From contig JAPOJQ010000005.1 in NCBI GenBank assembly GCA_029978335.1, forward strand, positions 1 through 64,000: a stretch of 64,000 nt of DNA, written 5' to 3'. Positions 8,213 to 18,633 of this stretch are shown here, one piece after another (positions within the stretch are counted from its first letter, which is position 1; every line of letters begins with the position of its first letter). Both the position numbers and the translations under genes were made by a program. The notes below the pieces were generated by a model. It was not told the DNA's origin, did no database searches, and saw nothing but the letters and a program-made list of their open reading frames with translations. The DNA comes from Actinomycetota bacterium (GTDB taxonomy: Bacteria > Actinomycetota > Acidimicrobiia > Acidimicrobiales > Ilumatobacteraceae).

Positions 8213-9505
8213 ATGGGCCTCGACGACGCGTTGCGTTACCTCGACGATCACACGTCGTACGACCGCACAGGCCGAATCGAGTCGCCATCGCTGGATCGGA
8301 TCAGTGCGCTGTGCTCGGCGATGGGTGATCCGCAGCACTGCGCGCCCGTCATCCACGTGACCGGCACGAACGGCAAAGGTTCGACCGTGCAGATGATCAC
8401 ACGATTGCTGATGGCATCGGGACTGACGGTCGGCACCTACACCAGCCCTCACCTCGAACGATTGAACGAGCGAATTCGTCGAGACAACGAGCCAATCTCG
8501 GACGATGAACTCGCTGAACAGATCGCGGCGATCGCCGACCTCGAGGTACTCACCGGAGTGCGGCCAAGCTTTTTCGAGGCGGTCACAGCTGCTGCCTTTC
8601 GCTGGTTTGCCGATGTGGCCGTCGACGTGATGGTGATCGAAGTCGGCCTTCTTGGTCGCTGGGATGCGACCAACGTCGTCGATGCCCAGGTGGCAGTGAT
8701 CACGAATATCGGACTCGACCACACTGAGTTTGCTGGACCGACACTTGCCCATATCGCCAAAGAAAAGGCGGGGATCATCACTGGTCAGAGCGCGGTGATC
8801 GTGGGGGAGACCGATCCTGAGCTCATCGCGATCTTTGGCGCCGAGCCGCATGCTGCGCTGTTGGTCCGCGATCTCGACTTTGCCACCGCCGACAACACGC
8901 TCGCCGTCGGGGGCCGATTGGTTGATCTTCGCACGCCGACGACGGTCTACTCGGACGTGCACATTCCGTTGCACGGTGCTCATCAGGGAGAGAACGCAGC
9001 CGTAGCGCTAACGGCGGTTGAGACGTTTTTCGCTTCGCCGTTGAGCGATGAGGTCGTACGAGAGGGATTCGCCACGTCTGAAGTTCCTGGCCGCTTCGAG
9101 GTGCTCGGCGTGCAACCGCTCGTGATCGTGGACGGAGCGCATAACCCGGCAGGAGCTGACACGTGTGCGGGTGTGTTTTTTGACGATTTCGCACCGCAGG
9201 CTCGGCGGATCCTCGTGGTGGGCACGCTGCGCGAACCAGATGAGATGGTGGCGGCGTTGCGAGCCGAGGATTTTGACGTGGTCATCGCATGCACTGCGCC
9301 GACGCCGCGTGGCGTCCCATCCGAGTTGGTCGGCGCTGCAGCTCGCGCCGCAGGTGTCGGTGAAGTGCTGGTGATCGACGATCCGGTCATCGCAGTTCGC
9401 GAGGCGCTTCGTCTGGCCGATGCGGACGATGCGGTACTGATCACTGGATCGATCTATGTCGTCGGAGCGGTTCGACCGTATCTGCGACGCCTCGCTGGCG
9501 GTTGA
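8213..9505 (+). CDS. folC: folylpolyglutamate synthase / dihydrofolate synthase
   Basis: A 430-residue Mur-ligase-fold enzyme that joins glutamate to dihydropteroate or folates using ATP. The P-loop is VTGTNGKGSTVQM; the following YTSPHLERLNERI, EVGLLGRWDATNV and NIGLDHTEFAG match the FolC signatures; the C-terminal domain has VDGAHNPAGAD. Length is normal. ATG at 8213, 14 nt after clpX and overlapping the TTG upstream of ndk by 4 nt. Sits in the same place as in many actinobacteria (clpX-...-folC-ndk). Confidence 0.93.
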   Translation: MGLDDALRYLDDHTSYDRTGRIESPSLDRISALCSAMGDPQHCAPVIHVTGTNGKGSTVQMITRLLMASGLTVGTYTSPHLERLNERIRRDNEPISDDELAEQIAAIADLEVLTGVRPSFFEAVTAAAFRWFADVAVDVMVIEVGLLGRWDATNVVDAQVAVITNIGLDHTEFAGPTLAHIAKEKAGIITGQSAVIVGETDPELIAIFGAEPHAALLVRDLDFATADNTLAVGGRLVDLRTPTTVYSDVHIPLHGAHQGENAAVALTAVETFFASPLSDEVVREGFATSEVPGRFEVLGVQPLVIVDGAHNPAGADTCAGVFFDDFAPQARRILVVGTLREPDEMVAALRAEDFDVVIACTAPTPRGVPSELVGAAARAAGVGEVLVIDDPVIAVREALRLADADDAVLITGSIYVVGAVRPYLRRLAGG

Positions 9506-12598: not shown

Positions 12599-14815
12599 AT
12601 GGCTGGTGACCGCAGAGCGCTCCGACTCGGTGTGCTTGCTTCGGTTGCATTCATCCTCGTTGGACTTCTCGGTGTGCGTCTCTGGTTCTTGCAGACGGTT
12701 CGCGCTGAAGAACTTCAAGCCCGAGTTGATCGCTCGCGGACACGAGTGATTCAGCTCGCCCCCGAGAGGGGACGGATCTTCGATGCGGATGGCCGCATCT
12801 TGGCCGACAACGAACGCATCTTGACGGTGGCGATCGACTGGCGAGCGATTGAACGCTCAAGCGTTCGAGCTCAAATCTTCGAACGGCTGTCGCAATGGGT
12901 CGACGTCACTGCGGCAGAGATGGAGGATCGCTACGACTCGGGTTACTACTCGCCATTCTTCCCCCTACCGTTGGCCGAAGACGTCGACGAGCCGACGGCA
13001 ATTGCATTGCTCGAGAGGGTCGAGGACATGCCCGGTATCGAGATCATCAACCAATGGCAGCGGGTCTATCCCTACGCACCCCATGCGGCGCACGTCGTTG
13101 GTTACATGGGTGCAATCACCGCAGAGCAACTTGAGGGATACCTCGTGCAGGGTTATCTGCGTAACGAACGCGTCGGTCAGTTCGGCATCGAGCGCTCCAT
13201 GGAAGCCGAACTCCACGGGGTCTGGGGTTATCGAGTGTTGGAGGTCGATGCATCGAATCGACCGGTTCGCGTCGTGGAGGAAGTGCCTCCGATCAATGGG
13301 TTTGACGTCCAACTGACCATCGATCTCGATATTCAGGTGTACGTCGAGCAAGCGCTCGAGACCTCCCTGCGGTCACGCCGAACTCAGTACACGTCGAACC
13401 CACTCGTTCGACAGCCTGACGGCACGCTCGGAGCACTTGATCCCACCCAACCGGATCTGGTGCCGTACAAGGCGCCTGCGGGTTCTGCGATCGTGAAGCG
13501 ATTCGACACGGGTGAGGTCATCGCGATGGCGAGTTATCCGACCTTTGACAACCGCTGGTTTGAGGCGGGGATATCGGGTGCCAAGTTCCGAGAGATCTTT
13601 CCTTCAACGAAACCAGACGGTTCACCAATCGACCCTGACGAATCGATTCTGGTGAATCGTGCGGTACAAGGCCGCTACAACCTTGGCTCAACCTTTAAGC
13701 CATTCACCGCGTACGCCGCCCTCGATACCGGTCTCATTACGCCCGACGAGCTCTACCGGGATACGGGCACCTACGAGTTGTACAGCGTGAACCAGGATCG
13801 CTGCGCCCGAGGGTTGATTCGGTGCGTGTTCAAGAATGCGTTGTGCGGTACCGGTGCGCCGTGTGTCTACGGTGAAGTCGATGTCGAAGATGCACTCGCG
13901 GTGTCATCGGATGCCTTCTTCTATCGAATCGGTGAAGACATTTTGGTGAAAAACGATGGCGAGCCGGTCTTTCAGGAAGAAATCAGAGCGTTCGGCTTTG
14001 GAACTGACACCGGCATTGAGTTGCCTTTTGAGTACGACGGCACGGTTCCGGATAAGGAACTCAAGCGCGTCTATGCCGAGCGTGGTGTGATCACCGAAGA
14101 CGAAGGCCGTGGTTTTTATGTTGGCGACAGCATCCAGATGGCCATCGGTCAGGGCTTGCTCTCAGCGACGCCGATTCAGCTCAACCAGGGGTACAGCACG
14201 ATCGCCAATGGCGGCATCTTGGTGCAACCGACCCTGATTGCAGCGATTTGGGAGCCCGGCACTCCCGACGGAACTGCTGGCTACGCAGATGTGCGTGAGG
14301 GAGAGATCAGCGAGCCCTCGGCTGCTCCGATCGTGGTACGCGAACTGGATATGAATCCCGAGTACCTCGACCCAATCGTGAAGGGGTTGACTCGCGTGGT
14401 GACGACCGGTGCAGGTGTGCCCGGAACCGATATCGCCTATCACGCCACCACCGGTGAGCGGCTCTTCTACGACTATCCAGATGACGCCATTCCAGTTGCC
14501 GGTAAGACGGGCACTGCGCAGGGGGCGGGCAACTATCCGTGGAACGACTCGTCAGCGTTCACCGCCTTCTCGCTAGATGCCAGTCGGCCATTTGTGGTGA
14601 CTGCGTATCTGGAAAAAGCGGGATACGGATCACAGGCCGCAGCACCGGTAGTGAAGTGCACCTTCTTGGCACTCTCGGGAAAGATTCGGACTGATCCGAT
14701 CCGCGTATCAGAGCCCTTGGATCTCAACTCCACGGTGGCTGCACCGCCAAACCTCCTCGACGATGTGGCGTGCTTCAACCGGCGCGGGGGCGGATCGATT
14801 GGAGTGATCGAGTGA
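12599..14815 (+). CDS. mrdA: penicillin-binding protein 2, elongasome transpeptidase
   Basis: A 738-residue class B PBP that cross-links peptidoglycan with RodA. It has a single N-terminal membrane anchor, a dimerisation region starting at APERGRIFDADGRILADN, and the transpeptidase domain with catalytic Ser364 in GSTFKPF, SSD at 436-438 and Lys636-Thr-Gly. Four cysteines (402, 409, 416, 422) cluster between the SxxK and SxD motifs; in an extracytoplasmic domain these could form two disulfides or a metal site. ATG at 12599 is 29 nt after mreD. The length, longer than the E. coli protein (633), comes partly from this and other loops. Confidence 0.94.
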   Translation: MAGDRRALRLGVLASVAFILVGLLGVRLWFLQTVRAEELQARVDRSRTRVIQLAPERGRIFDADGRILADNERILTVAIDWRAIERSSVRAQIFERLSQWVDVTAAEMEDRYDSGYYSPFFPLPLAEDVDEPTAIALLERVEDMPGIEIINQWQRVYPYAPHAAHVVGYMGAITAEQLEGYLVQGYLRNERVGQFGIERSMEAELHGVWGYRVLEVDASNRPVRVVEEVPPINGFDVQLTIDLDIQVYVEQALETSLRSRRTQYTSNPLVRQPDGTLGALDPTQPDLVPYKAPAGSAIVKRFDTGEVIAMASYPTFDNRWFEAGISGAKFREIFPSTKPDGSPIDPDESILVNRAVQGRYNLGSTFKPFTAYAALDTGLITPDELYRDTGTYELYSVNQDRCARGLIRCVFKNALCGTGAPCVYGEVDVEDALAVSSDAFFYRIGEDILVKNDGEPVFQEEIRAFGFGTDTGIELPFEYDGTVPDKELKRVYAERGVITEDEGRGFYVGDSIQMAIGQGLLSATPIQLNQGYSTIANGGILVQPTLIAAIWEPGTPDGTAGYADVREGEISEPSAAPIVVRELDMNPEYLDPIVKGLTRVVTTGAGVPGTDIAYHATTGERLFYDYPDDAIPVAGKTGTAQGAGNYPWNDSSAFTAFSLDASRPFVVTAYLEKAGYGSQAAAPVVKCTFLALSGKIRTDPIRVSEPLDLNSTVAAPPNLLDDVACFNRRGGGSIGVIE

Positions 14816-16186: not shown

Positions 16187-17794
16187 ATGGAACAGTCCAC
16201 CTCCCACGGCCCCGGCGACGGGGACCATCAGGATTCGATCCCGCCAGCCGGAGACGCACCGAGCAGTAGCGAATCGCACACTGGCAGCGGCCAGCGACGT
16301 CGCCGCGGCTCGCGCGGTGGCCAAAACCGCCCTAAGTCCGCAGCCGAGGCCGCTGATCGCAATCCAGAGGAGCTTCCTGAGCCGATTCGAGAAGGACGCC
16401 CGCAGTCAGTTGACGCTGCAGAACGCGCACTGGTTCGTCGCCCTCAAATCGGCGACACCATGCCGGTGCCACAGACGCCACCCCCTGGTCCGGCCAAGCA
16501 GGGCTCAGAGCCATCTGCAGCCGGTCAACCGACTCGGCGCCGTCGACGCTCGGGTCAAGGTAACCAGAGCCAGAAGAAGGACGCGGCGGTGCCGCAGTCG
16601 CAACAGCAGCAGTCGACATCGAATGGTCAGCAATCAAGCCGCAGCCGACGGCGTCGGTCGGGGCAGTCGGGTGCGGGTGAGTTGTCGGCCGAGGTGATGG
16701 AGCAGCGTCGAGGTCGGGAGCGCAATGGCAAGCCGCTCGGCCGGTACCTCATGTGCGTCCAGGTGCGCGATGGCATGACTCAAGTTGCCGTCCTCGAAGG
16801 CCGCAACCTGATCGAGCACTACGTCAGCCGCCCAGCCGATGATGTCAGCCAGATCCACGGCAACATTTATCTCGGCCGTGTGCAGAACGTGCTCCCAGGT
16901 ATGGAGGCGGCATTTGTTGACATCGCTACCCCGAAGAACGCCGTGTTGTATCGGGGCGACGTCCAATACGACGCCGAAGACATCGATGATGGTTCCGGTC
17001 AGCCGCGGATCGAACAAATTCTCAAGAACCGTCAATTGATTCTGTGCCAAGTCACGAAGAACCCAATTGGCGCGAAGGGTGCCCGGCTGACCCAAGAAGT
17101 GTCGCTGCCGGGACGCTTTGTGGTGCTCATCCCGAATTCGAGTACCTACGGCATCTCAAAGCGTCTGCCCGACGATGTGCGTCGTCGCCTTCGGGGCATT
17201 CTCGATCGAGTGAAACCGGACAACCACGGGCTCATCGTTCGCACCGCCGCTGAACACGCCACCGAAGCTGAGCTCACGGCCGACATGCGACTGCTGCTCG
17301 CGCAATGGGAACGTATCGAGGCTGCTGCCGCTGATGCGAAGCGACCGGCACTGCTGCATCGTGAACCCGAACTTGCGGTGCGTGTTATCCGCGAGGAGTT
17401 CAACGCTGATTACCGAGGCGTCATCATCGATGACGAGCGTCTCCATGCGGAGGTGAAGGAATACGTCTCGGCGTTCAATCCCGAATTGGCGGATCGAATC
17501 GAGTTCTACGATCGGCACGCAGAGGGTTTGGCGTTGTTTGAGAAGCACCATGTGCACGAGCAGGTGCACAAGGCTCTTGATCGCAAGGTCTGGTTGCCGT
17601 CGGGTGGGTCGCTGATCATCGAGCACACCGAGGCGCTCACCGTGATTGACGTCAACACCGGAAAAAACGTCGGCACCTCAAACCTCGAAGAGACCGTGTT
17701 CGCCAACAACCTCGAGGCAGCCGAAGAAATCGCCAAGCAACTGCGACTTCGAGATATCGGCGGCATCATCGTGATCGACTTCATCGATATGTAG
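16187..17794 (+). CDS. rne: ribonuclease E/G, N-terminal and catalytic part, ended by an in-frame TAG
   Basis: Codes for 535 residues before a TAG. Residues 1-170 are a disordered, Arg/Gln/Ser-rich extension typical of actinobacterial RNase E. The S1 domain starts near residue 215 (NIYLGRVQNVLPGMEAAFVD), followed by the RNase H-like and DNase I-like parts with the catalytic Asp of TVIDVNTGKN and the second catalytic Asp in IVIDFIDM. The TAG comes directly after FIDM, in the middle of the DNase I-like subdomain, and removes the rest of that subdomain and the zinc-link. The normal product cleaves mRNA and rRNA precursors in the degradosome. The same frame continues with conserved sequence to 18004 (see next entry). 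Start ATG at 16187 has AAAGGG upstream. Confidence 0.9.
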   Translation: MEQSTSHGPGDGDHQDSIPPAGDAPSSSESHTGSGQRRRRGSRGGQNRPKSAAEAADRNPEELPEPIREGRPQSVDAAERALVRRPQIGDTMPVPQTPPPGPAKQGSEPSAAGQPTRRRRRSGQGNQSQKKDAAVPQSQQQQSTSNGQQSSRSRRRRSGQSGAGELSAEVMEQRRGRERNGKPLGRYLMCVQVRDGMTQVAVLEGRNLIEHYVSRPADDVSQIHGNIYLGRVQNVLPGMEAAFVDIATPKNAVLYRGDVQYDAEDIDDGSGQPRIEQILKNRQLILCQVTKNPIGAKGARLTQEVSLPGRFVVLIPNSSTYGISKRLPDDVRRRLRGILDRVKPDNHGLIVRTAAEHATEAELTADMRLLLAQWERIEAAAADAKRPALLHREPELAVRVIREEFNADYRGVIIDDERLHAEVKEYVSAFNPELADRIEFYDRHAEGLALFEKHHVHEQVHKALDRKVWLPSGGSLIIEHTEALTVIDVNTGKNVGTSNLEETVFANNLEAAEEIAKQLRLRDIGGIIVIDFIDM

Positions 17795-18004
17795 ATCAAG
17801 GGGAATCGTGCTCGCGTTGTCGACACCTTCCGCTCTGCGCTCGCTCGCGACAAGACGAGGACCCAGGTGTTTGACATATCCGAACTCGGACTTGTTGAGA
17901 TGACACGGAAGCGAATCGGTGAAGGTTTGCTCACTGAGTTTTCCGATCGTTGTCCGAACTGTGAGGGTCGGGGAGTGATCGTCGATCACGCCCTTCTTGA
18001 TTGA
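17795..18004 (+). pseudogene. rne: C-terminal part of RNase E/G, in frame behind the amber codon
   Basis: Directly after the TAG at 17792-17794, 69 sense codons continue in the same frame to TGA at 18002-18004. They read as the RNase E/G core end: IKGNRARVVDTF, then DKTRTQ, then LGLVEMTRKRIGEGLL, and DRCPNCEGRG, the CPxC zinc-link that holds the tetramer. There is no frameshift; one codon alone breaks the gene. No convincing independent start exists in this part. It is either a nonsense mutation (GAG to TAG would restore a Glu seen in relatives, inference), a readthrough site, or a consensus error. Confidence 0.85.
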
Positions 18005-18051
18005 TGGCGCAGTTGGGAGCGGGTCAAGTGGTCGGTAGCATCCGTCGGGCT

Positions 18052-18360
18052 ATGTACGCAGTGATCGCCACAGGTGGCAAGCAAGAGAAGGTGGCCGAAG
18101 GCCAGGAGATCACCATCGAACGTATCGACGCCGAACAGGGCGCCGATGTGTCGTTCGTTCCGGTGCTGGTCGTCGACGGTGAGCGCGTGCTTGCCAGTGC
18201 CGACGTCTTGGCATCTGCGAGCGTCACGGGACGCGTCGTTGGTTCGGCTGCAGGTCCGAAGATCAACGGCTTCACCTACAAGCGCCGCACGAACCAGCGC
18301 CGTCGTTACGGCCATCGTCAGCACTACAGCGTGGTCGAGATCACGTCGATCAAGGCCTGA
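18052..18360 (+). CDS. rplU: 50S ribosomal protein L21
   Basis: A 102-residue ribosomal protein starting [11 protein letters not shown], the usual L21 N-terminus, with the C-terminal [16 protein letters not shown] segment that binds 23S rRNA. The ATG at 18052 is chosen for that reason; an upstream frame to 18001 overlaps the RNase gene and lacks similarity. A TAGCAT hexamer lies 10 nt before the start. Followed 16 nt later by rpmA, the conserved L21-L27 pair. Confidence 0.97.
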
Positions 18361-18376
18361 CCGAGGAGAACACGAC

Positions 18377-18628
18377 ATGTCGAAGACTAAGGGCGGCGGC
18401 TCAACTCGTAACGGCCGCGATTCAAACGCACAGCGCCTCGGTGTCAAAGTGTTCGACGGCACGTCGATCACTGCGGGAACGATCATTGTTCGTCAGCGCG
18501 GCACGAAGTTCCACCCCGGACGCAACGTCGGCATCGGTGGCGACGACACGCTGTTCTCACTCGTCGACGGTTCAGTCAAGTTTGGTGAGCGCAAGGGCCG
18601 CAAGGTCGTTGACGTGAACCCTGCCTGA
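18377..18628 (+). CDS. rpmA: 50S ribosomal protein L27
   Basis: An 83-residue ribosomal protein of the peptidyl-transferase region. [16 protein letters not shown] is the conserved flexible N-terminus that reaches the active site, directly at the start codon, so no leader-peptide extension of the Firmicutes type is present. GAGGAG lies 8 nt before the ATG. It ends 5 bp before the convergent dGTPase gene. Confidence 0.97.
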
Positions 18629-18633
18629 GACGT

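Follow-up and report, generated by a model that had tools for sequence, protein, structure and literature searches.

The gene order rne–rplU–rpmA is a common one. Within the enzyme encoded by the first of these genes, RNase E/G, two cysteines equivalent to C404 and C407 of E. coli RNase E are taken here to act as the zinc-link. D303 and D346 of the E. coli enzyme are the ligands of its catalytic Mg, and its DNase I subdomain (residues 280–400) is the dominant part of the dimer interface (PMC2631609). The gene considered in this study lies in a window of 64,000 nucleotides—the whole stretch of DNA that was analysed—which is contig 34 of a genome of 2,183,272 bases in 107 contigs. This source genome is 85.5% complete, and is probably a metagenome bin from the Ilumatobacteraceae; the nearest named matches are Ilumatobacteraceae and Acidimicrobiia assembled from metagenomes.

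The window carries one rne/rng frame (Table 1), which in the consensus is interrupted across its catalytic region by a TAG at codon 536. When the TAG is read through, the protein matches TIGR00757 with 471 bits (model positions 2–405 of 415) and PF10150 with 340 bits; the 69-residue tail by itself still matches the two models, with 69 and 40 bits respectively. Residues D488, D531, C589 and C592 align with D303, D346, C404 and C407 of E. coli RNase E. The TAG sits five codons past the second Mg-binding Asp position (the D346 equivalent), where E. coli RNase E has the Thr that follows FIDM. An earlier, sequence-only reading of this DNA had placed an in-frame TAG inside the RNase E/G catalytic domain, and had described the frame beyond it as unbroken for 69 codons to a TGA, with both LGLVEMTRKRIGEGLL and CPNC present. 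Each of these observations was borne out: the TAG is in frame with the ORF starting at 16187, the terminal TGA is at 18002–18004, the tail includes both elements, and neither a frameshift nor a second internal stop was seen in the rne frame. The protein lacks the small domain that E. coli RNase E has. In the ten genus relatives checked the proteins also end directly past the CPNC zinc-link segment, so the missing domain is not a loss in the window's rne. The two frames 3' of rne are presumed from family knowledge to encode bL21 and bL27 (rplU and rpmA).

Table 1. Coordinates of the rne locus (window positions) and of the two other genes with an internal stop in the same assembly
Feature	Position	Strand	Remarks
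rne/rng, RNase E/G, one interrupted frame	16187..18004	+	605 sense or stop codons plus terminal TGA
ORF through the TAG	16187..17794	+	535 aa; equivalents of D303 (codon 488) and D346 (codon 531)
In-frame TAG, codon 536	17792..17794	+	Glu in 29/29 comparison sequences
69-codon tail	17795..18001	+	Remaining DNase I subdomain and CPNC zinc-link (codons 589, 592); purifying selection
bL21-like conserved frame	18031..18360	+	Downstream neighbour of rne; assigned by sequence look; conserved in relatives
bL27-like frame	18378-18629		Follows the bL21-like frame; assigned by sequence look
ahcY (S-adenosylhomocysteine hydrolase)	L104:9202-10767	minus	In-frame TAG at 9415-9417; Ser in all covering relatives
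nuoH (complex I subunit)	L109:12431-13624	minus	In-frame TAA at 12788-12790; Glu in all covering relatives

Comparison with the orthologue in close relatives, which the sequence-only reading had proposed, gives a uniform answer. The codon equivalent to 536 is GAG or GAA in every comparison sequence from the genus and from other Acidimicrobiia, a set in which a few records are duplicates, one genome having been reached by two routes, and the TAG is conserved in none of the 29. As Glu stands at this position throughout, a single G-to-T change is enough to give TAG. A match to rne is found in 15 of the 16 genus genomes, the window's own included, and the internal stop occurs only in the latter; the match in one of them (G006) is a fragment without coverage of codon 536. 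One comparison record (L015) bears the title Bifidobacterium breve (MaH-09apr19-113), but its RNase E/G is of acidimicrobial type and agrees around the site with the sequence from an Acidimicrobiia bin of Lake Baikal (L016); the title is probably wrong.

Against the nearest relative, G013, codons 537–605 are 95.7% identical with a pS of 0.66 and a pN of 0.04, while codons 190–535 are 95.9% identical with a pS of 0.65 and a pN of 0.03. The resulting pN/pS is 0.06 downstream of the TAG and 0.05 upstream; selection on the tail is about equal to that upstream, so it has acted on the tail through practically the whole of the divergence from G013. The TAG is of one-base origin and recent, and the earlier statement that the tail is not decaying stands. 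If real, the stop would thus have to be either young or translated through. The idea that the gene is turning into a pseudogene, or works as two separate polypeptides, has nothing in its favour beyond the stop itself, and is highly improbable given that there is no second lesion and that downstream selection is about as strong as upstream. As for a split, no promoter-like site was found at 17700–18100, and the first in-frame ATG past the TAG comes only far into the tail.

About 813 kb of the assembly (about 37%, window included) was compared with parts of seven related genomes. Three convincing internal stops were found in 330 genes, or 108,219 codons: those of rne, ahcY and nuoH. The other in-frame TAG gene that the sequence-only reading had suggested looking for therefore exists, in ahcY. 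At the sites concerned the covering relatives have TCG, TCC or TCA in ahcY and GAG or GAA in nuoH, and the two halves of each interrupted gene belong to one Pfam family. Each of the three stops fits a single G:C-to-T:A change, with flanks at least 92% identical to the relatives. The contig with nuoH also holds a second NADHdh-type gene, 40% identical to nuoH, which relatives have too. Several other stop matches in relatives were discarded as N-terminal extensions or shadow frames, on the strength of coding scores that were low or negative or of flanks with little identity. No frameshift private to the window's genome was detected in the 42,002-codon subset tested, and the 26-base pattern of the TAG allele has no match in viral contigs.

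The seven relatives show one comparable internal stop in 246,810 codons; the excess in the window's genome is small (Fisher p = 0.087) and is suggestive only. That one stop is an in-frame TAA in a clpX-like gene of G007 (L068:1235; G007:C99), amid a short stretch of several mismatches, and looks like a local assembly error. A genome-wide G-to-T damage signature was considered and is not supported: changes of this type make up 6 of 50 private single-base amino-acid changes in conserved columns, no excess over other genomes, in a test that is weak, with few columns including the sister genome G013. Since there is no excess among private changes, and since 45% of the possible stop-making substitutions in the compared genes are already G:C-to-T:A (three out of three would arise by chance about 9% of the time), no damage mechanism is claimed. 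By a rough calculation in which some 3% of random substitutions give a stop, three stops would correspond to about 100 wrong bases in 325 kb, or about 3 per 10,000.

Translation of UAG into a full-length RNase E/G—by a suppressor tRNA, partial reassignment or programmed readthrough—would account for a frame that is intact and under selection past the TAG, and the second in-frame TAG, in ahcY, could be counted towards it. The rest of the evidence argues the other way. The search for an amber suppressor tRNA, also suggested by the sequence-only reading, came back empty: the genome has 42 tRNA matches, 41 of them assigned by ARAGORN, and a CUA anticodon occurs neither in these 41 nor in a tRNA-Sec (UCA) found separately, in a genome 85.5% complete. 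A weak 29-bit tRNA match on contig C22 was examined as a possible suppressor and set aside, being uncalled by ARAGORN and having an anticodon loop that by eye is not CUA. RF1 (prfA) is intact, scoring 457 bits, above the cut-off, with no internal stop. TAG also serves as a natural stop, terminating 5 of 53 conserved window genes (TGA terminates 40 and TAA 8). Finally, the nuoH stop is TAA, and the TAGs of rne and ahcY replace different residues (Glu and Ser); two stop codons and two replaced amino acids, none of them shared with relatives, are more than a single suppressor or a single reassigned codon would account for. With about 15% of the genome absent from the assembly a suppressor tRNA stays conceivable, but there is no sign of one, and translation of the UAG is very hard to credit.

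The same genome offers an example of what a used recoding signal looks like. A redoxin-like gene (L106:16925-18106; G000:C79:76925-78106) has a TGA at L106:17333, in the frame SWAPY-TGA-GCRYDLP. This TGA, picked up by a codon-usage scan, was at first a candidate lesion and was dropped: it is common to the relative G004, the frame of G013 opens just after its position, and it fits a selenocysteine codon, making the gene a putative selenoprotein gene. A hairpin of 7 bp, with GGU as its loop, begins about 14 nt past the TGA; its fold z-score is only −0.98, and its reading as a SECIS element was made by eye. The tRNA-Sec (L222; G000:C68:3552-3643) adjoins selB (G000:C68:1882-3531), which scores above its curated cut-off, and together they indicate that the source Acidimicrobiia genome probably makes selenoproteins. 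In contrast to the redoxin TGA, which is shared with a relative and for which the machinery is present, the rne TAG has neither, and none of the three internal stops is common to any relative.

A genuine recent nonsense mutation in the sampled strain, either a polymorphism or a loss of RNase E/G made tolerable by RNase J and other ribonucleases, is a more serious alternative. It agrees with the single base change and the undecayed tail. The second RNase E/G or RNase J that the sequence-only reading had thought worth seeking was found in part: no second RNase E/G was found in the 85.5%-complete genome, and rne is the only one identified, while an intact RNase J-type gene is present. The same reading's view that loss of the enzyme would be unexpected is reasonable, with only one RNase E/G found, although the RNase J-type gene exists. 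Against a real mutation, rne is intact in every relative genome covering the site, and the same explanation would have to hold for ahcY and nuoH, both highly conserved and in the same genome. A real recent mutation is possible for any one of the three stops; for rne it is nonetheless judged unlikely, and the stronger claim, that this free-living actinobacterium tolerates a nonsense mutation specific to its lineage in its only RNase E/G, is considerably more doubtful.

The reading preferred here, with a probability of roughly three in four, is that the rne TAG is an isolated consensus base error or a rare allele in a draft assembly, and that the gene is otherwise ordinary. What points to this is that ahcY and nuoH, two further core genes of the assembly, have a lone stop each: single stops scattered over three near-invariant genes are what random base errors, or rare alleles, would leave in a draft consensus; the fragmented state of the source (107 contigs, 85.5% complete) also counts in its favour. 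The living population would then carry an ordinary, intact RNase E/G, and the G-to-T substitution that makes the TAG would be confined to the draft assembly's consensus. It may have arisen as an error of sequencing or assembly, or it may be an allele, rare or non-viable, that entered the consensus at low coverage or from a mixture of strains. In a cell that did carry the TAG, translation would end at codon 535; the shortened enzyme would retain the two Mg-binding Asp positions but not the last part of the DNase I subdomain or the zinc-link, and would probably be inactive. Of the four options that the sequence-only reading had left side by side—recent mutation, recoding or readthrough, polymorphism and consensus error—error or a rare allele is thus favoured by the ahcY and nuoH stops, and recoding is left unsupported, with no CUA tRNA found in the 85.5%-complete genome, RF1 intact, TAG in ordinary use as a stop and a sense codon at the site in all relatives.

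The rne TAG most likely reflects an error or rare allele rather than new biology, and it carries a caution: where a draft metagenome assembly shows an isolated stop inside a conserved gene, many of its other genes should be examined for comparison before anyone proposes recoding or gene loss. Were the TAG real, it would inform on the dispensability of RNase E/G in this group; were it a tolerated nonsense mutation, RNase E/G would be dispensable in the free-living actinobacterium concerned. In its full catalytic region, its equivalents of D303, D346, C404 and C407 and the rplU/rpmA-like genes that follow it, the window's rne resembles RNase E/G of the actinobacterial type, from which it departs in its stop at codon 536. 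The three stops, as seen in the consensus, resemble the isolated consensus errors and rare alleles of draft metagenome assemblies in being scattered single-base stops in conserved genes of a fragmented bin.
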